From the NCBI RefSeq assembly GCF_004339665.1, contig NZ_SMMU01000001.1, forward strand, positions 186,001 through 250,000: a stretch of DNA of 64,000 nucleotides, written 5' to 3'. Both the position numbers and the translations under genes were made by a program. Shown here piece by piece: positions 18,137 through 32,824 of the stretch (position 1 is its first letter; each line of letters starts with the position of its first letter). The notes beneath the pieces were generated by a model. That model had not been told where the DNA came from, searched no databases, and saw only the letters and a program-made list of their open reading frames with translations. The DNA comes from Azotobacter chroococcum. GTDB lineage: Bacteria > Pseudomonadota > Gammaproteobacteria > Pseudomonadales > Pseudomonadaceae.

Positions 18137-18223
18137 GGTGGAAAACGACCGCAGGTCTTTTCCACCGGGCATTACGGGATGGAAGCGGATTGGTAGAAAA
18201 CGCGGTGTGGTTTTCTACCAATC
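18137..18223. terminator. Two strong hairpins between lysR and the SIR2 gene
   Basis: Hairpin 1: GGTGGAAAA (18137-18145) pairs with TTTTCCACC (18158-18166), and its loop holds a further GACC/GGTC pair. Hairpin 2: a perfect 14-bp stem, GATTGGTAGAAAAC (18188-18201) with 18210-18223, and an 8-base loop. Each stem has A and T runs in both orientations, so they can stop transcription arriving from either of the two convergent genes. The stems also resemble dispersed Pseudomonas repeats. Confidence 0.7.
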
Positions 18224-18284
18224 GGCGCTGGCAGCAATGACCTAAAGCAGACGCTCTCTCATTGTCAACCAAAACTTCAGAATC

Positions 18285-21200
18285 TCATTTGCCATCAGTT
18301 TTTTCCCAATATAGCTTTGAGGTTTCTCCAAGAAAACGCAATTCTGGTAGCGGGTCAGAGGACGTTAGTTGGACCCAGGCGGTGATGCTTTTAGAAACTT
18401 TCGTGGGTCTGCTGCTTACGAGCTCTCGCGCTAGTCTCGCGCAACTCCAGCGTAACGTTGGTACATTATCATCTGGCACTCCCGAGCCAAGCGGTCGGTG
18501 CTCATATGAAAGCTCTACGAGCATCTTTTTAAGCCCTGACTCAATTAATGCAAAAGAGCTTTCGCTAATCCATGCGCTCTGGTGCTTCGCAATGTCTAGC
18601 ATCAAGCTTAAGCCCCATGGCAGTGCTGGCATGCGGCGCGCTGCAATAATTCCAGAAAGCGTATTAATCAACAGCTCTGGCAGCCCAGACTGACTTAGAT
18701 CAGGCCGATGAATCCAGTATGAAATTACGTTTGAGGCATTATTTACTTTGGAAACATCCGAATCTATGAGGTGCTCTACCAGTTCAGCTTCCACTCGGAG
18801 CAGCTCATATTCATCGCGCTGCTTTAATGCTCTCATAAGACGGAATCGCCAAAAATTATTGCCAAATTCGGCGCTTTGATCAACGACTGACTGAAACCAT
18901 TTGCCTATATTTGAGTCACAGAGCGAGCCAGATGTGTTTTCGTTTTCAACCATCGCTGCGACAATGCTATCAAATAAGTCCAGTCGCTGATTGACTGCTG
19001 TGCGCAATTCATTTACATGGAGCAGTTCTTCACGTACGTCCTGCCACTCGTTGTCCCACCACCGCTTTACTAATTGAAGGCCTGCAAGCATGTCGCTTTC
19101 CGGCCATGGTTTTCTTTCCAGTGAACGAATCCAATTCTGTAGCAAGTCATTATTAGCAAGGGGACTCCAGGATTTTCTAGAGTTTCGGGAACTTATCGTG
19201 AAGGATGATGGTGCCGCGAAAGATGTTATTTCTTGACTAAGAATCCAGCGTCTAAAAGAGAGGTCAAAATCGACGTTATTATCATCTAGCCAAGTGAAGG
19301 CGGCCCAAGGATAGTGGCCAGGTATCAGTGGCCAGGATTCGCCTTTAACTAGAAACTGCCTGATGACCTCTTTTTGACTATTTGTGATGAAGCCCCAGCT
19401 ATTCAGCCAGAATAAACGTTGCCAGGCATCCTTCAACACTGTGGTGCTTGGGGCATTGCTCGGATTCTGGTTTAGCTGTAGCGGTTCTAATTTCGAAATT
19501 AGATTATCAATAACGGCCGAAATATTATGATTTTCGTTAGAAATAATTAAATCATTGTCACGCCGTTGAAGCATGTGCAGACATATCCAATCATCTTCAA
19601 AATACTGATCTCTTACCAACAAAGCAGTTACGTCAGGAATGCTGGCAATTGAAGGAGCAATTCTCGCCCTGTCATCCACCGGCAGAGCTTCAAAACACCG
19701 TGAAAGTACTAGCGCAAGCTCTTTCCAAAGCAGGTGAAGACGCCAAAGCAAAGGCTGGTGGTACAGGGCGATGACTCGTTCCATGAAAGAATATACTTTT
19801 GCTGTATCGCTAATGCGGATGACCAACCGAGCGAATACGTCCATGTGAAAGCCAGTCACACGTTGCAGATCTTCGTCATCGACCGGATCGCTGAACATAC
19901 GCTCGACAAGGCTTAGAGAGCGAGAGCAAATCTGTAGCGCAAGCGACTCCTCGGTGCGAGCAACTTGGTACCGAGATAGCCAGCCTGCTGTGTGCAGCAA
20001 TTGATTTGGATTTCTCGGTTTCAACATATTTTTGTTGAGGCCTCTTATCATTACGCTCAGCACCCGCTGCATTGAGTCCGCGTATTGCACCCACCACGCG
20101 GCTTGAGCAAATGAGCCAATGTCGAAGGTCACACTTTCAATGCGAGGCACCAACGCAACTCGATCGCTCAACGTTAGCCAGGCGAATGCTGCGTATATTT
20201 TATCTCTTAAGTTCTGAGAGCCGTTTAGCTGTTCAGTTGCTGAATAGCGTCCCAACTCAAATTGGGGAGTGTAGCTTTTGGGCTGAGATGGGGGAGGTGT
20301 TTCGGCATTTAAGGCAGCGGTAAGCTGTTGCAGCTCAAGCCGAGAGTCAAATCCTTTCGCTGCGAGATCCGCCAGCCGACGATCAAGCTGCTCGGATGGA
20401 AGCGCATTATTCGAGTCTTCTTCAGTAGAGGGCCAACGCCAACTTTTGGAGGTTTGTAAATAGCTTATCGCCAAGCATGCCCATGCTTCTTGAGATAAAT
20501 ATTGCGTGCTATTAGAACGCAACCGTTGATTGCTGCGTAACTGCTGCAGCCCTTTCAAGCTGACAGCAATACCTGCCTCTGGTTTGCCAACCTCTCCCAA
20601 AAGCATACCTTTTCGAACACGCATATAGCTGTCCGATGAGCGGATGTGCCATTCACTAAGTAAACGGTGGGCGATATCACGGTCACCCTCATAAAGTGCA
20701 AGTAGAATTGACTCGTGCGCAATCTCGTCATGAAGCTGAAGATCCTTCGGTAGCACGGACGCAAGAAGTTCTTTCAGTGCGTTGAAATCATCTCGACGAA
20801 GCTCTTGCCTAGCCCAGCGCAACAGGCTCAGTCCGAGATCACGCCAGCGTCGTTGAAATTCTATCGTTGATTCAATGCCGAACCGCTTAAGCTCCGTTTT
20901 CTGCTTATCGAACATAGTGACGGAATACTTGCTTGTTGCTTTGATCAAAGCCAGCGCGGCTAAGGCCAATGAGTCATCGAAGCACTGGAGAAGTACTTCC
21001 TGGTGCCAAGCGTACTCTGCGAGCACTGCAACTCCGACATGCGGCGTGTCCTGTACTAGTTTGTCGAGCAGATCTTTGCCATTTAAGAATCCAGGAATTG
21101 CATCAATGCTATGCTGAAAGCGCCGGCGTACAGAGATTGGTGCTATTAGCCATCCCGGATAAGTTCTACGCAAATTTCCAACAGGAGCATATACGTTCAA

Positions 21201-22139
21201 CAGGCGACTTCGCCGTTCGTCTACATCTTGATGAGGAAGGCGTGATACCTGATCCAGAGGGGGAAGGTCACCCCACTCAGAGTCTTCTTCCTCAAGCGGC
21301 TTTGCCAATAGCCGAAACATAGCGTCAAATCGGGAGAAGTAGTCCAACTCGTCTACCCCACTTGGCAAAGGCAAAACCACTGGGGTCACTTGGCGTGCTT
21401 CGAGTAGCGTTCGCTGACCAAGCGACGGGGCACGACTGACAAATAAATAGATGGGCAAAGCATGTTTATCAAGCATGTCACGAACCCATCCGATCCAGTG
21501 CAAGAAATTTGGATCATCACCGGAGAATCCAACGAGACAGAACACATTTTCAAGCAATGATTGGCGCACCAAATTTACGAAAGGTGCAAATAACTCTGGG
21601 TAGCGCCGATAGTCATCTTCCGTAAAGATGAATGGCCTCTGAGACGGAAAAGATCCGTGCAATTTTACAATGCGTCGTCTGCCTAGGATTTTCGATTGTG
21701 GAATGTCTTCGCGACAAATCACCGTATAATGGGCACGCTCAACGATGTCGTCCGCTGCTCGTTCCAATAAGGTGTCGTAGTTAGTAGTGAAGATCTCTGA
21801 CCATGGCAACTGAAGTAGTTGATTGTGCAAAATACCTGGACGCACTCTGTCGTCAGGAATGAGGCGCTTCAAAACTTCTTCGAGTGCGGGCTTAGAAAAA
21901 ACGCGGGCATATTGCTCACCCAGTTGCGTTACCATGCCTGCTGAAAAATCCTTCAGATCACTGTCCGTCGGGTTCAATTCGCGCCATAGTTCTTTCGCAA
22001 CGTCGTACCACATGGCCAACTGATCGCCATTTTCTGCATTTCGACTGAATCCGGCTCCTACCATGACTGCGGCATTGCCGTTGGCTAATGCTTTGCGGAT
22101 AGCGTTGTAGTGGACCTCATCGTTGATTTTTATAGACAC
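18285..22139 (-). CDS. SIR2-domain protein, probable anti-phage NADase (DSR-like)
   Basis: 1284 residues. GTG start at 22139 with AGGGG five bases upstream. The N-terminal SIR2_2-type domain (about 10-285) has GAGFS at 28-32, TTNYD with Asn120, KLHGS with His161, and GFSGDDPNF at 204-212; Asn and His are the residues needed for NAD+ cleavage in defence-associated sirtuins. The remaining 1000 residues look all-helical, with many W/L-rich repeats and no P-loop, which argues against the Avs5/STAND type and for a DSR1/DSR2-like plan in which the long C-terminal part senses phage proteins. Base composition is clearly A/T-richer than on both sides, a sign of transfer. No partner gene adjoins except the XRE regulator upstream. 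Confidence 0.82.
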   Translation of the reverse strand: MSIKINDEVHYNAIRKALANGNAAVMVGAGFSRNAENGDQLAMWYDVAKELWRELNPTDSDLKDFSAGMVTQLGEQYARVFSKPALEEVLKRLIPDDRVRPGILHNQLLQLPWSEIFTTNYDTLLERAADDIVERAHYTVICREDIPQSKILGRRRIVKLHGSFPSQRPFIFTEDDYRRYPELFAPFVNLVRQSLLENVFCLVGFSGDDPNFLHWIGWVRDMLDKHALPIYLFVSRAPSLGQRTLLEARQVTPVVLPLPSGVDELDYFSRFDAMFRLLAKPLEEEDSEWGDLPPLDQVSRLPHQDVDERRSRLLNVYAPVGNLRRTYPGWLIAPISVRRRFQHSIDAIPGFLNGKDLLDKLVQDTPHVGVAVLAEYAWHQEVLLQCFDDSLALAALALIKATSKYSVTMFDKQKTELKRFGIESTIEFQRRWRDLGLSLLRWARQELRRDDFNALKELLASVLPKDLQLHDEIAHESILLALYEGDRDIAHRLLSEWHIRSSDSYMRVRKGMLLGEVGKPEAGIAVSLKGLQQLRSNQRLRSNSTQYLSQEAWACLAISYLQTSKSWRWPSTEEDSNNALPSEQLDRRLADLAAKGFDSRLELQQLTAALNAETPPPSQPKSYTPQFELGRYSATEQLNGSQNLRDKIYAAFAWLTLSDRVALVPRIESVTFDIGSFAQAAWWVQYADSMQRVLSVMIRGLNKNMLKPRNPNQLLHTAGWLSRYQVARTEESLALQICSRSLSLVERMFSDPVDDEDLQRVTGFHMDVFARLVIRISDTAKVYSFMERVIALYHQPLLWRLHLLWKELALVLSRCFEALPVDDRARIAPSIASIPDVTALLVRDQYFEDDWICLHMLQRRDNDLIISNENHNISAVIDNLISKLEPLQLNQNPSNAPSTTVLKDAWQRLFWLNSWGFITNSQKEVIRQFLVKGESWPLIPGHYPWAAFTWLDDNNVDFDLSFRRWILSQEITSFAAPSSFTISSRNSRKSWSPLANNDLLQNWIRSLERKPWPESDMLAGLQLVKRWWDNEWQDVREELLHVNELRTAVNQRLDLFDSIVAAMVENENTSGSLCDSNIGKWFQSVVDQSAEFGNNFWRFRLMRALKQRDEYELLRVEAELVEHLIDSDVSKVNNASNVISYWIHRPDLSQSGLPELLINTLSGIIAARRMPALPWGLSLMLDIAKHQSAWISESSFALIESGLKKMLVELSYEHRPLGSGVPDDNVPTLRWSCARLARELVSSRPTKVSKSITAWVQLTSSDPLPELRFLGETSKLYWEKTDGK

Positions 22140-22228
22140 TGCTCCCCCTGTTGCCGCTGTAAAGCCGCCGCGTTTTCTATAAGAGTAATCATTGTAAGTA
22201 GCAGCCGATTAAGTTACATGGCATTGTG

Positions 22229-22248
22229 CTATGATGCCTATATGTCAA
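22229..22248. promoter_or_regulatory. SIR2 promoter region with a copy of the XRE-operator core
   Basis: On the minus strand TTGACA (22248-22243) is followed after one base by ATAGGCATCATAG (22241-22229), the exact 13-mer that forms two thirds of the palindrome upstream of the XRE gene. It lies 90-102 bases before the SIR2 start. A -10 at optimal spacing from TTGACA is poor, so the exact promoter is uncertain, but the shared sequence suggests control by the XRE protein. Confidence 0.55.
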
Positions 22249-22400
22249 TTGGTACTCTCGCGCCTAGCCGCTTCTGGTCGACTGCAGCCAATGGCCAATG
22301 GATGTCAGCCACTTGAGGCGCCACACGACCAAGCAAGTCCCCCCTCGTTCAGCTCCTGCAGCATCTGAGGGGGCAACGGGGAACCGATCATGATCCCCCC

Positions 22401-22679
22401 TCACGTCCCCTTCCTCCTCACCGCCACTATCCCCACCCGCATCCCGAACAGCCTGAACACGCTGTCCAGGGTCGCTACCGTGGGGTTGCCGGTGTCCTGT
22501 TCGAGCTGGCGCAGGGTACGCAGGGAGAGTTTGCACATGCGGGCGAAGTCGGTCTGGTTCAGGCCGGTGACGCGCAGGCGCAGTTGGCGGATCGCGCCGC
22601 CGAAGCTCAGGGTGCCGTCGGCCAGTTGCTGGCGGATTTCGTCGAGTACCGCGCCGCGGTCTTCTTCCGGCTTCTTCAT
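22401..22679 (-). CDS. XRE-family helix-turn-helix regulator (HipB-like)
   Basis: 92 residues. An N-terminal helical part (KPEEDRGAVLDEIRQQLADG) is followed by an XRE helix-turn-helix at about 30-85 (LRLRVTGLNQTDFARMCKLS, then RTLRQLEQDTGNPTVATLD) and a short basic tail. It resembles the HipB-type regulators of pseudomonads that usually precede a toxin, but no HipA or other toxin follows. Instead a 28-codon open frame (22391-22305) and then the SIR2 gene on the same strand come next, 261 bases downstream. Its GC content is host-like, unlike the SIR2 gene. A palindromic operator overlaps its promoter. Confidence 0.8.
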   Translation of the reverse strand: MKKPEEDRGAVLDEIRQQLADGTLSFGGAIRQLRLRVTGLNQTDFARMCKLSLRTLRQLEQDTGNPTVATLDSVFRLFGMRVGIVAVRRKGT

Positions 22680-22726
22680 GGCATGTCCGGCAGCGACTGC
22701 TGCGCGCCCCGTGTGAGTCGGTCCAG

Positions 22727-22761
22727 ATAGGCATCATAGTGCCTATTTTTAGCCTTCCCAA
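22727..22761 (-). promoter_or_regulatory. Promoter and palindromic operator of the XRE gene
   Basis: Minus-strand TTGGGA (22761-22756), 17-base spacer, TATGAT (22738-22733). The -10 lies inside the perfect dyad ATAGGCA-N6-TGCCTAT (22727-22746). Such an arrangement is what an autorepressing XRE protein needs. The start codon is about 50 bases downstream. Confidence 0.65.
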
Positions 22762-22771
22762 GCATGAAAAA

Positions 22772-23176
22772 GGTATTTAAATACCCATTTCGACGTCTTA
22801 CTCGTGCGAAACAGGCAATGTATTGCCTTCTGTCATGCAAGCGCATTCACGCCGATCCGGGCGCCGCCCTAACAACAGCAGGCCGATGGCGAAGCCGAAC
22901 GAAGGTGGATGGCTTCGGCCATCCACCCTACCTACTCCGAACCCGCGCAGCACGCATGAAAGCCATGCACAAAATGCAAATAAAGCAAATTAATGAAGAT
23001 TAAAGTTAAAACTGAGGAATATTAATTTATAAGAAAATCGAATTTCAGATTGCTCTCTTATGCATGCAGTATTGGGCCACCACTTCCTGCAGGCCCATGA
23101 ACCGGCGCTACAGATGGCTGGCCCACCGGACCACCGGACGACTCGGCATCGTGACAGTCGCCCCAGGTGCATTCCG
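22772..23176. other. Intergenic region before the monooxygenase/ABC operon
   Basis: About 400 bases without a gene. It holds a perfect 14-bp palindrome, GGTATTTAAATACC (22772-22785), and a hairpin with a 10-bp stem and TTCG loop, GGTGGATGGC/GCCATCCACC (22904-22927). An A/T-rich segment (22970-23060) probably carries the promoter of the downstream sulfur operon. No recognisable coding sequence. Confidence 0.55.
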
Positions 23177-26459: not shown

Positions 26460-27244
26460 GCGCCAGCCTGAAGACCGCAGCCCCGACGCGGGGCCTGCAC
26501 CTGGAAGTGAAGAACCTCAGCCATGCCTTCGACCTGGGCAAGACCAGCCTGCCGGTGCTCAACCAGGTCGACCTGAGCCTGCAGCCGGGCGAGAGCGTCG
26601 CCCTGCTCGGCCCCTCGGGCTGCGGCAAGTCGACCCTGCTGCGCCTGGTCGCCGGGCTGGAGGCGCCGCTGTCCGGACAGATCCTGGTCGACGGCCAGCC
26701 GATCGGCGCGCCCGATCCGTCGCGCATCCTGGTGTTCCAGGACCCGACTCTCTACCCCTGGCGCACCGTGTGGGACAACGTCGCCCTCGGCCTGCAGGCC
26801 CGCGGCCTGATCAACAGCCAGCGCGAACGGGTCGACGCGGCGCTGGCCAAGGTCGGCCTCGGCGAGTTCCGCGACGCCTACCCGCGCCAGCTGTCCGGCG
26901 GCATGGCCCAGCGCGCCGCGCTGGCCCGCGCGCTGGTCAACGAACCGCGCCTGCTGCTGCTCGACGAGCCCTTGGGCAAGCTCGACTCGCTGACCCGCAT
27001 CGCCATGCAGGGCGAACTGATCCGCCTCTGGCAGCAGCAGCGCTACAGCTCGCTCCTGGTCACCCACGACGTGGAGGAAGCCCTGCTGCTCTGCGACCGG
27101 GTGCTGGTGTTCAGCAACCGGCCGGCGCGCATCCTCGCCGAGCTGAAGGTCGAGCGCCTCTACCCGCGCCACCGCGACGACCCGCACCTGGTCGAGCTGC
27201 GCCAGCAGGCGCTGGAGCTGCTTGGGCTGGGCAGCAGCTGGTGA
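26453..27244 (+). CDS. ABC transporter ATP-binding protein, sulfonate/taurine type
   Basis: 263 residues from ATG 26453, inside the permease stop region. AGGAG lies upstream at 26441-26445. Walker A GPSGCGKST at 53-61, FQDPTLYPWR Q-loop, LSGGMAQR signature, LLLLDEPLGKLDS Walker B/D-loop, VTHDVEEA H-loop; all intact. SsuB/TauB class. Last gene of the operon, and an IS630 element begins within five bases of its stop codon, so any gene that once followed has been cut off. Confidence 0.92.
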   Translation: MVSASLKTAAPTRGLHLEVKNLSHAFDLGKTSLPVLNQVDLSLQPGESVALLGPSGCGKSTLLRLVAGLEAPLSGQILVDGQPIGAPDPSRILVFQDPTLYPWRTVWDNVALGLQARGLINSQRERVDAALAKVGLGEFRDAYPRQLSGGMAQRAALARALVNEPRLLLLDEPLGKLDSLTRIAMQGELIRLWQQQRYSSLLVTHDVEEALLLCDRVLVFSNRPARILAELKVERLYPRHRDDPHLVELRQQALELLGLGSSW

Positions 27245-27246
27245 AA

Positions 27247-28270
27247 TACCGAAGCAGCCGGACGGCAGCGACCTCGTCGTCCGGCACGTCTTCACATACC
27301 TCCAGGTCATGCGTCAACAGGCGATCAAGGCTGTCCGCGAAGGGCAGACCGTCCAAAGCGTGGCGGCCGCCTTCGGCGTCAATATCCGCAGCGTCTTTCG
27401 ATGGCTGTCCGACTTCGCCAATGGCGGACAGAACGCCCTGCTCGCCAAGCCGATTCCCGGACGTCCGCCCAGGATCGGTGCCGAGGAAATGCGCTGGCTG
27501 GCACAGGCCGTTCGGGACTACTCGCCGCTGCAATACCGCTTCGAATTCGGCCTGTGGACCTTGTCGCTGATCGCCGAACTGATCCACCACCAGTTCGGCA
27601 AGACGCTGTCGTTGTCGGCGGTGAGCCGGATCATGAAGCTGCTCGGCTTCACCGCACAGAAACCCTTGCATCGCGCCTGGCAGCAGGATGCGGCGCTGGT
27701 GCGCCAGTGGGAAAGCGAGATCTGGCCGGCCATTCGGGCCGAGGCCCGCGCGGCGGGAGTGAGGATCTACTTCGCGGACGAGTCGGGCCTTCGCTCCGAC
27801 CATGCCGGCACGGCCTGGACAGCGCAGGGGGAAACGCCGGTGCTCGAGGTGACCGGCCGGCGCTTCTCGGTGAACATGCTGTCGGCAGTCGGGACGCGCG
27901 GCGAGTTCCGCTTCATGCTGCACGACGGGACGGTGACAGCCAGCGTGTTCCGCAAGTTTCTCAAGCGCCTGCTGGTCGGTGCCGAGCAACCGGTCTTCGT
28001 GATCGTCGATGGCCATCCGGTTCAAAAGGCCCGGCTGGTCAGGGCGTTTGTCGAAGAACAGGCGGGGCGCCTGAAGCTCTTCCATCTGCCGCCGTACTCG
28101 CCGCACCTGAACCCGGACGAACAGATCTGGGGGCACGTCAGGCGCAGTGTGTCCAGGCGTCCTGTGCAGAACCGGGAAGAAATGAAGAAATTGGCCCTGG
28201 GTGCGCTGCGCAGAATCCAGAAGCTGCCGGAGTTGGTGAAGTCGTTTTTCCGCCACCCGGACTGCCGATA
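27247..28270 (+). mobile_element. IS630-family insertion sequence
   Basis: The ends are inferred from an imperfect inverted repeat: left ATACCGAAGCAGCCGGACG (27246-27264) and, complemented on the right, ATATCGGCAGTCCGGGTGG (near 28270), each beginning next to TA, the dinucleotide target of this family. It carries one transposase gene. If the right end is correct, the transposase stop codon (28281-28283) lies just outside in flanking DNA. Boundaries are estimates. Confidence 0.7.
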
Positions 28271-28283
28271 TACAGCAATATGA
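27309..28283 (+). CDS. IS630-family transposase
   Basis: 324 residues from ATG 27309 (frame open to 27222). N-terminal helix-turn-helix (AIKAVREGQTVQSVAAAFGV, RSVFRWLSDF) and linker GRPPRIGAEEM, then a DDE domain: Asp in IYFADESGLRSDH, Asp in VFVIVDGHPVQKA and Glu in HLNPDEQIWGHV, matching the IS630/Tc1 DD-E spacing. No frameshift or internal stop, so it may be active. It catalyses cut-and-paste transposition into TA sites. Confidence 0.9.
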   Translation: MRQQAIKAVREGQTVQSVAAAFGVNIRSVFRWLSDFANGGQNALLAKPIPGRPPRIGAEEMRWLAQAVRDYSPLQYRFEFGLWTLSLIAELIHHQFGKTLSLSAVSRIMKLLGFTAQKPLHRAWQQDAALVRQWESEIWPAIRAEARAAGVRIYFADESGLRSDHAGTAWTAQGETPVLEVTGRRFSVNMLSAVGTRGEFRFMLHDGTVTASVFRKFLKRLLVGAEQPVFVIVDGHPVQKARLVRAFVEEQAGRLKLFHLPPYSPHLNPDEQIWGHVRRSVSRRPVQNREEMKKLALGALRRIQKLPELVKSFFRHPDCRYTAI

Positions 28284-28321
28284 TATTACCTTTAAAAAGA
28301 TTAGTAGCTATCGAAAGGGAG

Positions 28322-28891
28322 ATGCTTGTGGCTGAGTTGATTCAGATTGAGACTAGCCGTCTATTCCTTAGGTAATGGAGAACTTCGGATCACCTGCCGT
28401 TTGCAGAGCTCAATGCAGATCAGGAAGTAATGAGGTATTTTCCGTCCACGCTTAGTCGACAGGAAAGCGACGCAATGGCTGATCTATGCGAGTCACTTAT
28501 TGAGCAACGTGCTTGGGGCTTCTGGGCTGTTGAAGCAAAAGCAGATAAGTGCTTCATTGGCTTTGTGGGCTTGCATGTCCCAACTGCTGAGTTGCCTTTT
28601 TCGCCATGTGTTAAGATCGGTTGGCGGCTTTCATCGCTCTACTGGGGAAAGGGCTATGCCACTGAAGCGGCAAATGCCGCACTTAAAGTTGGATTCGAAA
28701 TGCTGAAACTGCCAGAAATAGTAGCCTTCACAACCATCGGCAATTTTAGAACGCGTGCTGTAATGAAACGTCTCGGTATGATTGAGAGTGCTTCGACTTT
28801 TAAGCACCCAGCAGTTCCAATTGGTAGTTGGCTCCAAGAGCATTGCCTTTATCGAATTGCTCGTGAGCAATGGATAGCCAGAAATTCATAA
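28322..28891 (+). pseudogene. GNAT acetyltransferase interrupted by one in-frame TAA
   Basis: Reading from ATG 28322 gives 17 residues ending SRLFLR, then TAA (28373-28375), then in the same frame WRTSDHLPFAELNADQEVMR and a full GNAT domain (GFWAVEAKADKCFIGFVGL; LSSLYWGKGYATEAANAAL, the acetyl-CoA loop; FTTIGNFRTRAVMKRLGM). In the family this site is often Gln (RLFLRQW), so a single CAA to TAA change explains the break. The 153 residues from ATG 28430 could be made alone but would lack strand beta-1. It resembles RimJ/RimL-type acetyltransferases. A/T-rich relative to its neighbours; probably acquired. Confidence 0.8.
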
Positions 28892-29322
28892 TAAATTTCT
28901 TATGCTCGAGCACTTTTAATTTTTGCTAAGTTTGGCAGTAGAAGGCTGGATTGAGTGTTTTTCATCCATCAGCTCGATGAGGCTTTATCCCCAGCCTTGG
29001 TGAATAAGGCTGTGGAAAACGCGGCCGGCCTCACGTGGGATGCGCGCCAGCATGGGGCGGTCAAAAACTGACCAGAGCGCAGGGGGATCGCAAATTTGTG
29101 AGGGAGGACCGGCGAGTTCTGCCTTGGGCGGCGATATGGCATCCCAGCCCCGGCTCCCATGAGTGGCAGAGGCTTTGCCAACGCTCTGGGACTTACGCCG
29201 CGGCTGCTCTGCCGCGCGTGGTGCCGTCTATGCGAAGCGGTGACGGCAGGGACGATGGGAGGGCATGCTATGAGTCGTCGTTTTGCACTCACCCTTGCAA
29301 TCGCCCCCAACGAGAAACCTCC
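28892..29322. other. Intergenic region before the 2-hydroxyacid dehydrogenase
   Basis: 431 bases. A hairpin CAGCCTT-N7-AAGGCTG lies at 28992-29012 and could terminate the acetyltransferase transcript. GC content rises sharply from about 29015. Short open frames here have no ribosome binding site and no family I recognise; some may be leftovers of mobile DNA, in line with the IS630 and IS6 sequences on both sides. Confidence 0.4.
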
Positions 29323-30282
29323 ATGCAGCCCACTATTCTCCTCGCTTCACGTGTTTCCGAGCCATTTCATGAACGCCTGAAAGCCCGTTTCAGGGTGATC
29401 GAGGCAACGGCCGCCGGCTTTGACGAGGCAGTTGCCGCGCTACCACCGGAACTGGCTGGGGAAATACGCATCGTCGTCGCGTTCGGCTCGACGCGCATGC
29501 CGGGAGCGTCGTTGGCTAGGCTCCCGCAACTGGGACTGATCTGCTGCCTGGGCAGCGGCTACGACGGCATCGACCTGGATCACGCACGGGAACGTGGGAT
29601 CGTCGTGACCAACAGTCCCGGCGCAAACGCGAGAAGCGTGGCCGATCTGGCGATGGGCCTGCTGATCTCGAGCATCAGGAATCTTTCCTCTGCCCGCGCA
29701 TACCTGGAGGCCGGGCGCTGGCAAGGCAACGCCGGCGAGCGCATGCAACCCGTGCGCGGACTGACCGGCCGCAGGCTGGGCATCTGCGGCCTGGGTGCCA
29801 TAGGCCTGAACGTCGCCAAGCGCGCCGCGGCCTTCGACATGGAGGTCGGCTACCACGGCAGGAAGGCCCGCCCGGAGGCTCCCTATCCGTATTTCGACTC
29901 CATCATGCAACTGGTCACCTGGGCGGACGTGCTGGTCGTGTCCATGCGGGCAGACGCCAGCACCTACCATGCGATCGACGCTGCTGTGCTGCAGGCACTG
30001 GGCCCGCAAGGATTTCTGATCAATGTTTCGCGCGGGACGACCGTGGACGAGAAGGCCCTGGTGCATGCCTTGAAAACCGGCCAGATCGCCGGCGCGGGGC
30101 TGGATGTCTACGAGCACGAGCCTTCGATCCCCAGCGAACTCTTCGAGCTTCCTCACGTGGCCCTGACGCCGCACATCGGCGGTAGCACCCTCGAGGCGGC
30201 GCAGGAGCAGGAGGCCTGTGTCCTGGCCAATATCGAGGCGTTTACGGCAGGGCAGCCGCCGCATACGCCTGTGCCCCTGTAG
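29323..30282 (+). CDS. D-isomer-specific 2-hydroxyacid dehydrogenase
   Basis: 319 residues from ATG 29323. NAD(P) motif GLGAIG at 156-161, then catalytic Arg237 (INVSRG), Glu266 (YEHEP) and His284 (PHIGG); all present. HGRKARP after strand 2 (Gly-Arg-Lys instead of an acid) suggests NADPH. The closest type is the glyoxylate/hydroxypyruvate reductase group, which reduces hydroxypyruvate to D-glycerate. A glycerate kinase and a CdaR regulator lie 1.3-2.5 kb downstream, with a wrecked MFS transporter between, so this was probably part of a glycerate or hydroxypyruvate utilisation locus. Confidence 0.87.
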   Translation: MQPTILLASRVSEPFHERLKARFRVIEATAAGFDEAVAALPPELAGEIRIVVAFGSTRMPGASLARLPQLGLICCLGSGYDGIDLDHARERGIVVTNSPGANARSVADLAMGLLISSIRNLSSARAYLEAGRWQGNAGERMQPVRGLTGRRLGICGLGAIGLNVAKRAAAFDMEVGYHGRKARPEAPYPYFDSIMQLVTWADVLVVSMRADASTYHAIDAAVLQALGPQGFLINVSRGTTVDEKALVHALKTGQIAGAGLDVYEHEPSIPSELFELPHVALTPHIGGSTLEAAQEQEACVLANIEAFTAGQPPHTPVPL

Positions 30283-30469
30283 GCATTCTCAGCCGGCCCC
30301 GGGCTGCAGCTTGAAACATACCGGAGGGTGCCTGCAGCTTACCTCTGACAAGGGCCGTAGCCGGCCCACAGGACCGCACAGGAGGCGCGACAGGCAGCTC
30401 GAGCGCTTTCTTTCCTTCTAATGGAGCGCAAATCGTCGCTGGTGGGCGTCTGGCGGCCTGCTGAATGGC

Positions 30470-30547
30470 CCCTCGTCTCCTGGCTACGATGGGCGAGCTG
30501 GGAATGGTACAGACCATCCTGGGCCATCAGAACCTCAGCAGTGCATG
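30470..30547 (+). pseudogene. Possible tyrosine-recombinase C-terminal remnant
   Basis: A short plus-strand frame reads RLLATMGELGMVQTILGHQNL then stops. The VQTILGHQNLS pattern matches the box II helix (LLGHSxLxTT) of phage-type integrases. Only about 25 residues remain and no box I or catalytic Tyr is present. Low confidence, but it fits the other mobile-element debris around it. Confidence 0.35.
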
Positions 30548-30872
30548 AACAAGTTGGCGACCTGATCATGGACCGAAGCAAATCGTTGCAACTGACTTGA
30601 AGCGGCGCATCACCTTCTCGCATACCCGGGTCGGTTGGTGCGAATTCTCCGCCCGGTTGTTCAACCCCCTTGTGCTGGCGGTGTTCGAGGTTCAACCCCA
30701 TTTTCCTGTTCGCCGCCGCATAACTCCCGAGCTTGTCAGTGATCAGGACACGCGGAGCGCGACCGTGCTTCCTGAGCAGCTTGCGCATGAGCCGCCTGCC
30801 TGTCGCGCCAGCGTTGCACCAGCACATCGAGCATCGCGCCGTGCTGGTCCAGCGCGCGCCACAGCCAGTGTT
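30540..30872 (-). pseudogene. IS6-family transposase remnant
   Basis: Minus-strand fragments in different frames reconstruct the C-terminal half of an IS6/IS26-like transposase: KHWLWRALDQHGAMLDVLVQ, then (shift) LMRKLLRKHGRAPRVLITDKL, GSYAAANRKMGLNLEHRQHKG, then (shift) NNRAENSHQPTRV.EKVMRRFKS, then (shift) QLQRFASVHDQVANLFMHC and a stop. The N-terminal half with the first Asp is missing and at least three frameshifts are present, so it is dead. Its 5' edge is fused to the MFS gene at about 30870. Confidence 0.85.
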
Positions 30873-31317
30873 TCCTGCTGCTGAGGGTGACGTAGAGCGA
30901 ATAGTTGAGGATCCAGCCGGAGAACGGCCCGCCCTCCAGGCCGGACACCGGAATGGCGGCCATGAACAGGGCCATGATGCGGCCGCGGCGGCTGGCCGGG
31001 AACCACTGCGAGAGGTAGAGCACCATGCCCAGGAAGAAGCCGGCTTCGGCGGCACCGGTGAACAGGCGCAGGGCGTAGAGCTGGCCGGGCGTCTCGACCA
31101 GCAGCAGGGCAGTCGAAGCCAGGCCCCAGGCGATCATCATCACGGCGATCCAGCGGCGCGGGCCGAAGCGGTTCAGCGCCAGGTTGCTGGGCACGCCGCA
31201 GAGCACGTAGCCGATGAAGAAGATGCCGGCGCCGAGGCCGTAGACGTTTCGATACAACGCGTTCCGCTCGTTCTGGACAGCGACGGAACAGGCTGTGGGG
31301 CTGTCGGGAAGGGACAT
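30873..31317 (-). pseudogene. Truncated MFS transporter (ACS family)
   Basis: About 148 residues of an anion:cation-symporter-type MFS protein. YGLGAGIFFIGYVLCGVPSN, RFGPRRWIAVMMIAWGLAS, LRLFTGAAEAGFFLGMVLYL and FPASRRGRIMALFMAAIP are typical of the glucarate/galactarate/glycerate transporter group. The usual first helix (YLDRVNVGFA region) is absent, replaced by a polar stretch, and everything after helix 5 has been replaced by an IS6 transposase fragment. It cannot be functional. Its position opposite cdaR and near glycerate kinase suggests it once imported glycerate or a sugar diacid. Confidence 0.8.
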
Positions 31318-31587
31318 TTCTTATCTCTCTTGTGGTTGTTATTCGGAGCCGCTATCCACCACGGGCTCCTTGGCTGCGGAGTCTCGGCGATCGACTGGCC
31401 ATCGTCTTCGGCGATCTGCACGACAGCCGGCCTGCCCGGTTGTGCAGATGAACAATGCCCCTGCCGGGGGACGAGCCGATGCTGGGCGCCCCATCGGGAT
31501 TCGGGACACCGGCGCGGGACTGGCGTACACAATTGAAGAGGCCCTTCCGAGAGGGCTGGACAGGTTTCGCCACGGGAGTGGACTTGC

Positions 31588-32691
31588 ATGTTCGAACTGG
31601 ACCATGAGCTGGCGCAGGACATCGTCACACGGGCGATGGCGATCCTGCCGTACAACGTCAACGTGATGGACAGCCAGGGGCTGATCCTCGCCAGCGGCGA
31701 GCCCAGCCGGATCGACACCCGCCACGAGGGCGCGCAGCTGGTGCTGTCCAACGCCCGGGTGGTGGCGATCGATAGCCAGGCGGCGGCCTGCCTGAAGGGC
31801 GTGCAGCCGGGGATCAACCTGCCGCTGTTCTTCGACCGGCAACTGATCGGCGTGCTGGGCATCACCGGCGACCCGGAGCAGGTACGCCTCTACGGCGAGC
31901 TGCTGCGCATGACCGCCGAAATGCTGGTCGCCCAGCGCCACCAGCAGGCCGAACACCGCTGGCGGCGCCAGCGCAGCGACGACCTGATGGCGCTGCTCCT
32001 GGAAGAAGGCGGCGACGCCCCGCGGCTGCTCGACGAGGCCCGCCTGCTCGGTCTCAAGCCGCAGCTGGCGCGCACGCCCTGGCTGTTCGAGCTGGCCGAG
32101 GGGCAGTCGGCCGAGCGACTGGGCGACTGGCTGCAGGGGCGCCATCCGGACAGCTGGTGCGTCTCGCCGGCGGCCGGCTCGCTAGTCTGGTGCCAGCCCG
32201 GAGCCAGCCTCGACGAGCAGGCGCAGACGCAGCTGCTGGAGCGGCTCGCGGCACAGGGCTGGCAGGTGCTGCGCGTCGCCGTCGGCGAGCTGGCCGAGGG
32301 CGTCGAGGGCATGCGCCACGGTTACCGCCGGGTGCGCGACCTGTTGGCCTACGGCCGGGCGATCCTCTCCCGACAGCGGCTGCTCGGCCTGTCGCGCTAT
32401 CGCCTGCCGGCACTGCTCTGGCACTACCGCGACAACGAGGCGGTCAGGGAACTGCTGCAGCCGCTGCAGCAGCTGCGTGCCCGCGATGCCGGCGGCCAGT
32501 TGCTCGGCACCCTGCGCAGCTGGTGCGAGCACCGCGGGCACAGCCAGGCCTGCGCCGATGCCCTCGGTGTGCACCGCAACAGCCTGCGCTACCGCCTGGA
32601 GCGGATCGCCGAGCTGAGCGGGGTCGATCCGCTGCGCCTGGATGGCCTGCTGACCCTCTACCTGGGCATGCAACTGCTGCCGGAGGCCTGA
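31588..32691 (+). CDS. cdaR: Sugar-diacid/glycerate-responsive regulator CdaR
   Basis: 367 residues. N-terminal diacid recognition domain (about 5-135: ELAQDIVTRAMAILPYNVNV, PGINLPLFFDRQLIGVLGITG) and C-terminal PucR-type helix-turn-helix (about 310-365: CADALGVHRNSLRYRLERI). GGGAG precedes the ATG by nine bases. E. coli CdaR activates galactarate, glucarate and glycerate genes. Here it stands next to glycerate kinase and opposite the wrecked MFS transporter, fitting a D-glycerate regulator. Complete gene. Confidence 0.9.
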   Translation: MFELDHELAQDIVTRAMAILPYNVNVMDSQGLILASGEPSRIDTRHEGAQLVLSNARVVAIDSQAAACLKGVQPGINLPLFFDRQLIGVLGITGDPEQVRLYGELLRMTAEMLVAQRHQQAEHRWRRQRSDDLMALLLEEGGDAPRLLDEARLLGLKPQLARTPWLFELAEGQSAERLGDWLQGRHPDSWCVSPAAGSLVWCQPGASLDEQAQTQLLERLAAQGWQVLRVAVGELAEGVEGMRHGYRRVRDLLAYGRAILSRQRLLGLSRYRLPALLWHYRDNEAVRELLQPLQQLRARDAGGQLLGTLRSWCEHRGHSQACADALGVHRNSLRYRLERIAELSGVDPLRLDGLLTLYLGMQLLPEA

Positions 32692-32824
32692 GGCTTTGTG
32701 CTTTTGCACAGAAATGCCGCGCCGCTCTTGGTCGTTCCGTCGACGCGCGCCGGATGCTTGCCCCGCAGAATGAGGCCAGCGCCTGCGCGCATCCCATCCT
32801 CCAAGACAAGAAGAGAAGTCCGCC

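Follow-up and report, generated by a model that had tools for sequence, protein, structure and literature searches.

Must a small regulator gene that lies directly upstream of a killer gene be its partner? This question is raised by a locus of Azotobacter chroococcum (RefSeq assembly GCF_004339665.1, contig NZ_SMMU01000001.1, positions 186,001 to 250,000; this whole stretch of 64,000 nucleotides is called the window, and its genome G000), where a gene for an XRE-type regulator is followed, on the same strand and after a gap of 261 bp, by a gene for a sirtuin, that is, a large SIR2 protein. A first-pass annotation, made from the sequence alone, had proposed that the regulator is a dedicated repressor of the SIR2 protein, the pair resembling a toxin-antitoxin operon. 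Our analysis points to another answer: the sirtuin is probably a stand-alone abortive-infection NADase of the Dsr2 family that adjoins an orphan HipB, the two being neighbours and not a dedicated toxin-antitoxin pair. This answer is based on homology, the catalytic residues, the absence of hipA, the swap of the downstream segment, and the fact that the two genes were not found together at any of the other loci searched.

We first consider the sirtuin itself. The open reading frame (ORF) was intact over 1284 residues, and the GAGFS motif, N120 and H161 picked out by the first-pass annotation were all present. A Pfam scan recognised SIR2_2 (1.3e-21), and N120 and H161 fell on N133 and H171 of the solved Bacillus DSR2, as counted along the alignment; H171 is the position mutated in the deposited H171A structure entries. 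At E-values up to 0.1, Pfam gave no domain besides SIR2_2, so that no NTPase was recognised in the protein, and the C-terminus was almost entirely helical in prediction, in agreement with the long helical region without a P-loop described earlier. The DSR-like identity was likewise supported. Specifically, the PADLOC model Dsr2 (PDLC02184) matched with 535 bits (1.1e-160; residues 10-1261 on positions 12-1208 of 1222), and the ThsA models came next with 5.8e-26 and weaker. Sequence comparison with solved structures recognised the sirtuin in the SIR2 domain only. When a predicted model of residues 1-1196 (mean predicted local distance difference test score, pLDDT, 79.9; predicted TM-score, pTM, 0.62) was submitted to Foldseek, DSR2 chains made up all 50 top matches listed, the first 44 being long alignments whose TM-scores were low (0.21-0.29 on query length, with a root-mean-square deviation, rmsd, near 20). 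In VIA, the whole model matched DSR2 8wyb_B over residues 4-933 (Z 28.9, 653 aligned, rmsd 14.9), and the SIR2 part matched DSR2 8wy9_D with Z 28.1 and rmsd 2.7 over 268 residues; the high rmsd of the whole model indicates that the domains are not superposable as a single rigid body. Residues 296-1284 modelled alone formed a confident alpha-solenoid (mean pLDDT 82.6, pTM 0.82).

At 1e-30, a Dsr2-like match was found in 6 of 398 genomes of the family, including the window's own, and at 1e-50 the only match among 369 genomes of the class was again the window's own. A second genome, that of Azotobacter beijerinckii DSM 378 (G001), carries a near-identical sirtuin. The closest ortholog is that of a Pseudomonas metagenome-assembled genome (locus L052), with 79% protein identity.

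The XRE gene upstream has a different history. As the first-pass annotation had noted, its product is a small HipB-like regulator; it matched HTH_3 (5.6e-6, 26.7 bits with a cut-off of 23) and scored 30.6 bits with the HipB subfamily TIGR03070 (Y4mF), below the cut-off of 71.65. Its relatives are far more numerous than those of the sirtuin, being found in 138 of 398 family genomes at 1e-10, among them the congeners G002 (97% identity) and G003 (92%). We classified 67 XRE loci, one each from 67 of the 138 genomes and mostly the better-scoring ones, with G001 and others left out. In 53 of the 67, the gene immediately before XRE in the same orientation was hipA (4 of these being partial hipA matches), and there was no hipA in the other 14; both hipA proteins checked contained the HipA_C domain. 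Judged by these neighbours, the XRE proteins of this family are the HipB partners in hipA-hipB operons. The claim of a dedicated repressor is therefore not supported: the XRE protein belongs with HipA, and its hipA has been lost here.

The loss can be followed among the congeners. The order in G003 is operators, hipA and XRE, hipA lying between XRE and an acyl-CoA dehydrogenase flank. The sequences of the window and of G002 pass from the hipA leader directly into the XRE start codon, and comparison of the loci found no hipA beside XRE in the window, G001 or G002. Since the loss is common to G000, G001 and G002, it is probably ancestral; hipA would have been cut out from its own start codon up to that of XRE, probably in a common ancestor of the three Azotobacter species, and the XRE would be the HipB left over from the operon. 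The orphan copies of G000 and G002 differed by 9 synonymous and 3 nonsynonymous changes (ratio of nonsynonymous to synonymous rates, dN/dS, 0.11), indicating that the gene is under purifying selection and still doing something. Note that 14 hipA-less loci (e.g., L039, L046 and L106-L110) and the 4 partial hipA matches were seen, so that loss of the toxin with hipB kept seems recurrent.

Upstream of hipA or XRE, the window, G002 and G003 each have three palindromes AGGYA-N6-TRCCT at a spacing of exactly 42 bp. With a slightly relaxed pattern, the 53 hipA-bearing loci gave at least one match in 27 and a pair 41-42 bp apart in 24; the remaining 26 gave none, and the motif is therefore not a general one. 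Upstream of hipA in L064-L123 and others, two or three palindromes stand in arrays with a spacing of 41-42 bp. A scan of 22100-23060 gave a single promoter-like match, upstream of XRE, where 0.8 were expected by shuffling; the same scan found no promoter-like sequence before the sirtuin. The HipB kept by purifying selection most likely still binds its own three predicted operators.

The family of this XRE was not found beside Dsr2 genes at the other loci searched. The first-pass annotation had suggested asking how often it lies upstream of sirtuin homologs, and a profile search found it at none of 22 other Dsr2-like loci: 0 of 16 (for L048 and L055 there was no upstream DNA) and 0 of another 6, covered for 5 kb on each side, which tblastn had located in five plasmid records and a phage record. 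As a control, the window XRE scored 180 bits with the profile that includes it; a second profile, from which the G000 and G001 copies had been left out, gave it 177.7 bits and likewise found nothing else at Dsr2-like loci. Pfam applied to one upstream neighbour each at 10 of the 16 loci showed no HTH_3, although unrelated helix-turn-helix (HTH) genes elsewhere may be missed in this way. The closest ortholog, L052, was without the XRE family in the profile search. Conversely, G002 and G003, which both have the XRE, gave no Dsr2 match at 1e-30; G003 had a weak SIR2 match (1.1e-8) elsewhere in its genome. The only genomes seen to carry both sirtuin and XRE were G000 and the near-identical G001. 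A role of the XRE as a partner conserved upstream of Dsr2 genes is thus rejected on the 0 of 22 other loci, and the pairing in the window is, on present evidence, most likely accidental and not dedicated.

Base composition and comparison with G002 indicate how the two genes came together. The sirtuin has 48.1% G+C, compared with 65.9% for XRE and 66.3% for the window. The A/T-rich island of the first-pass annotation therefore holds for the sirtuin, whereas XRE, with a native composition, lies outside it. In addition, the stretch 18285-22761 assigned to the module overshoots the XRE start codon by 82 bp at its 22761 end. Window positions 18239-22389 (4151 bp) are replaced in G002 by 5661 bp of other DNA carrying methylase and ResIII-type ORFs, bounded at one end by the LysR gene that both genomes have and at the other by a position 11 bp beyond the XRE stop; no operator was found before these methylase genes. 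In G003 the genes beside XRE (L040:3818-6831) are an NA-iREase2 gene, with a NACHT match just under cut-off, and an overlapping RelA_SpoT gene. PADLOC gave no match for these two, which are a possible defence pair, and the other flank of G003 was unlike that of the window. The segment swap against G002 together with base composition indicates that the sirtuin came to XRE, and that the two did not arrive together. The sirtuin thus sits at a site at which defence-type genes take each other's place; it would have been gained by horizontal transfer at an exchange site bounded by the 3' end of XRE.

If the protein acts like its relatives, its alpha-solenoid would sense a phage protein, upon which the SIR2 domain would hydrolyse NAD+ and the infected cell would be killed or arrested. 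In the published work on DSR2, the apo enzyme formed tetramers in which no NADase activity could be detected in vitro, and the monomeric phage tail tube protein switched it on (PMC11087589). As apo DSR2 was inactive there, a repressor would not be needed to silence such an enzyme; the sirtuin of the window may accordingly be held off by its own architecture. The coordinates of all features are collected in Table 1.

Table 1. Features of the locus, numbered along the window (strand in the third column).
Feature	Position	Strand	Remarks
Dsr2-family SIR2 protein	18285..22139	-	1284 aa, GTG start, frame open throughout
SIR2 NADase domain, about residues 10-282, N120 and H161	21294..22112	-	Pfam, alignment to solved DSR2, structure comparison
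Alpha-solenoid region, residues 296-1284, putative sensor	18288..21254	-	model mean pLDDT 82.6, pTM 0.82; matches generic solenoids
DNA similarity to the Pseudomonas ortholog L052	18270..22244	-	gene and about 105 bp upstream
Segment swapped relative to congener G002	18239..22389	-	between LysR gene and XRE stop
Operator-like sequence upstream of sirtuin	22226..22241	-	exact 13-mer of operator 1 at 22229-22241; second half-site absent
XRE/HipB-type regulator, orphan (hipA lost)	22401..22679	-	92 aa
hipA deletion junction, hipA leader fused to XRE start codon	22679..22680	-	window 22677-22688 matches both ends of G003 hipA
HipB operator 1 (predicted), AGGCA-N6-TGCCT	22729..22744	.	overlaps -10 of old hipA promoter; by comparison
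Sigma-70-like promoter TTGGGA-17-TATGAT of XRE, formerly of hipA	22733..22761	-	
HipB operator 2 (predicted), one mismatch	22771..22786	.	42 bp from operator 1
HipB operator 3 (predicted)	22813..22828	.	42 bp from operator 2

Several observations weigh against the reading of a stand-alone Dsr2-family enzyme next to an unconnected HipB. The sirtuin scored 520.3 bits with the NCBIfam Dsr2 equivalog NF041819, under its cut-off of 1400, so we file it as a Dsr2-family relative and not as an equivalog. The comparison of the C-terminal region with DSR structures, suggested by the first-pass annotation, showed a predicted alpha-solenoid; taken alone, however, this solenoid fits DSR2 no better than other solenoids. 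Foldseek with residues 296-1284 was led by karyopherins, with no DSR2 chain among the best 50 matches listed, and the VIA match to DSR2 8wyb_C (Z 9.8, rmsd 7.0, 535 aligned) was tied with many unrelated solenoids. Together with the missed cut-off, this means that the sensor may serve another trigger; such generic matches of a model may still leave room for a relationship of the region to DSR2. Furthermore, no terminator turned up in the gap that separates XRE from the sirtuin, so that read-through from one into the other is possible, and the 13-mer ATAGGCATCATAG of operator 1 recurs before the sirtuin, these being the only two exact copies in the 4.86 Mb genome, with one-mismatch versions at three more places. 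When the 261-bp gap was dinucleotide-shuffled 5000 times, 13 or more shared bases arose in 16 shuffles for the 380 bp upstream of XRE and in 5 for the 125-bp operator region. Chance sharing is thus unlikely, which hints at cross-regulation. The orphan HipB could, on this account, have been co-opted: it would bind the operator-like site in the sirtuin promoter, maybe with read-through from its own promoter, and a former antitoxin would set the level of a foreign NADase. We regard this as unlikely, though it has points in its favour besides the rare 13-mer before both genes, namely that the site is intact in G001, that XRE has stayed under purifying selection after the loss of hipA, that the two genes share a strand with no terminator found between them, and that another hipA-less XRE (L026) stands about 50 bp before a SoFic-type Fic gene. 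The site itself fits poorly. Its second half-site is absent. With a palindromic matrix made from 12 distinct operators, its rank in the 64-kb window is 32 (score 2.0), and with a half-site matrix its rank is 19; the palindromic matrix gives scores of 27-36 to the three operators before XRE, but they are among its 12 and so match by construction. In the L052 promoter, 5 of the 13 positions differ (by eye on the alignment), the lone promoter-like match lies upstream of XRE with none before the sirtuin, and the 13-mer was noticed first and the statistics done afterwards. That an operator half-site arisen in the newcomer's promoter lets the toxin-less HipB regulate a Dsr2-type NADase is likewise unlikely. 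Two related candidates were set aside: a full HipB operator in the sirtuin promoter is rejected on its rank of 32 in 64 kb, which leaves the coincidence of the 13-mer as the one lead, and an operator copied in by recombination is not supported, since the sirtuin promoter aligns gaplessly to that of L052 there. Note that similarity to L052 weakens near the 13-mer, so that the exact edge of the shared segment cannot be fixed.

The dedicated module of the first-pass annotation, in which XRE would have evolved to act specifically on the SIR2 protein, as its repressor or antitoxin, is close to refuted. Gene order, strand and the 261-bp gap agree with it, and there is general precedent for small repressors before defence operons, such as RptR (PMC12255303). 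On the other hand, the XRE family partners hipA in 53 of 67 loci and occurs in 0 of 22 other Dsr2-like loci, the XRE is present in G002 and G003 where no Dsr2 match was found at 1e-30, and the two genes differ in base composition. It is hardly more credible that the sirtuin gene is decaying and out of use. The G001 copy does contain an in-frame stop, at codon 1107, whereas the window copy is intact over 1284 codons and shows a dN/dS of 0.14 against the L052 ortholog. We therefore retain a stand-alone Dsr2-family NADase beside an orphan HipB as the best explanation.

Orphan XRE genes of the same family were also seen near other defence-type genes. In L026:1357-2998 (G148; also in L109), such a gene is followed about 50 bp on by the Fic gene mentioned above (PADLOC SoFic, 1.1e-41; Pfam Fic). 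A defence-type gene lay at most 600 bp downstream on the same strand in 3 of the 14 hipA-less loci (window, G002 and G148); no enrichment is claimed, since the genes scanned with a defence library were some of those downstream at the 14 hipA-less loci.

Other regulators were noted near Dsr2-like genes. By profile, a divergent Xre/MbcA/ParS antitoxin gene lies about 90 bp upstream of the Dsr2-like gene of a viral contig (L062:3644-8495), and a Mor-type activator lies near that of L057. By eye on the ORF list, L052 has an unrelated XRE on the opposite strand at a distance of about 1.9 kb, and L061 has an XRE on the downstream side. Annotated regulators near Dsr2 relatives include PadR in a Brevibacillus plasmid and LysR in an Ideonella plasmid. 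An inositol monophosphatase-like gene adjoins Dsr2 in L052 (4708-5526) and lies directly downstream of hipB in L065, L108, L116, L117 and L118. We rejected L052 as a former hipAB site, since this gene wanders (63 of 396 genomes at 1e-45) and hipAB stood beside it in only 4 of 30 loci returned (about 1.5 kb on each side).

Among the Dsr2-like genes themselves, the copy L047:4970-8830 (G031) has Asn at the expected catalytic His (IVKLNGS versus IVKLHGS), and from this substitution it may be inactive or altered; the genes downstream of it resemble phage structural genes, as judged by eye. On the Rhizobium rhizogenes plasmid pC6.5d, the annotation shows a Dsr2-like SIR2 gene (L157:8368-10756) and, after it on the other strand, genes for a metallophosphoesterase and a caspase-family protein. 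In the window, the inverted 12-mer TAGAAAACGCGG stands on both sides of the sirtuin gene, at 18194-18205 (+) and 22168-22179 (-). Elsewhere in the window, positions 27243-32729, which hold an A/T-rich GNAT acetyltransferase gene at 28430, are missing at the matching place in G002, where the counterparts of 27242 and 32730 are about 290 bp apart.

With this protein, the Dsr2-type sirtuins come to include a clade in which the sensor region is too diverged for its sequence to be recognised from the solved Bacillus DSR2. The locus is also a clear case of a toxin gene excised from start codon to start codon, with the antitoxin and its operators kept and the antitoxin selected, beside a defence exchange site. 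If HipB does control the sirtuin, orphan antitoxins would gain a function as controllers of an exchangeable defence site; if it does not, the locus calls for caution, as an HTH gene beside a killer gene is not necessarily its partner.

Literature searches on defence sirtuins and their repressors, on orphan HipB, on HipB with SIR2, and on DSR2 in Azotobacter gave no description of this locus among the papers listed. We compared the two genes with known systems separately. RptR (PMC12255303) is a small repressor of an E. coli defence island with the site TAGCTA and several promoter repeats; its authors found no close structural homologues, and it is associated with type I restriction-modification across genomes. 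The window XRE resembles it as a small regulator upstream of defence genes with several promoter repeats, and is set apart, going by that description, by the TAGCTA site and by its own association with hipA in place of type I restriction-modification. HipA-HipB modules with an XRE antitoxin of the TIGR03070 kind are closer: they share an XRE of about 90 aa, a hipA neighbour in the relatives and palindromic operators upstream, whereas the hipA that comes first in the relatives' operons is gone in the window and the TIGR03070 score (30.6) is below 71.65. The sirtuin matches the PADLOC and NCBIfam Dsr2 models (PDLC02184 and NF041819) over their full length with 535 and 520 bits, but stays far under the equivalog cut-off of the latter (1400). 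Compared with the DSR2 of Bacillus subtilis (PDB 8wkx, 8wyb and others), it is longer (1284 versus 1005 residues), its sequence similarity is detected in the SIR2 domain only, and its solenoid alone fits karyopherins and other solenoids as well as it fits 8wyb_C. The two proteins share the catalytic Asn and His, the SIR2 fold, and an architecture in which SIR2 is followed by a long helical region.

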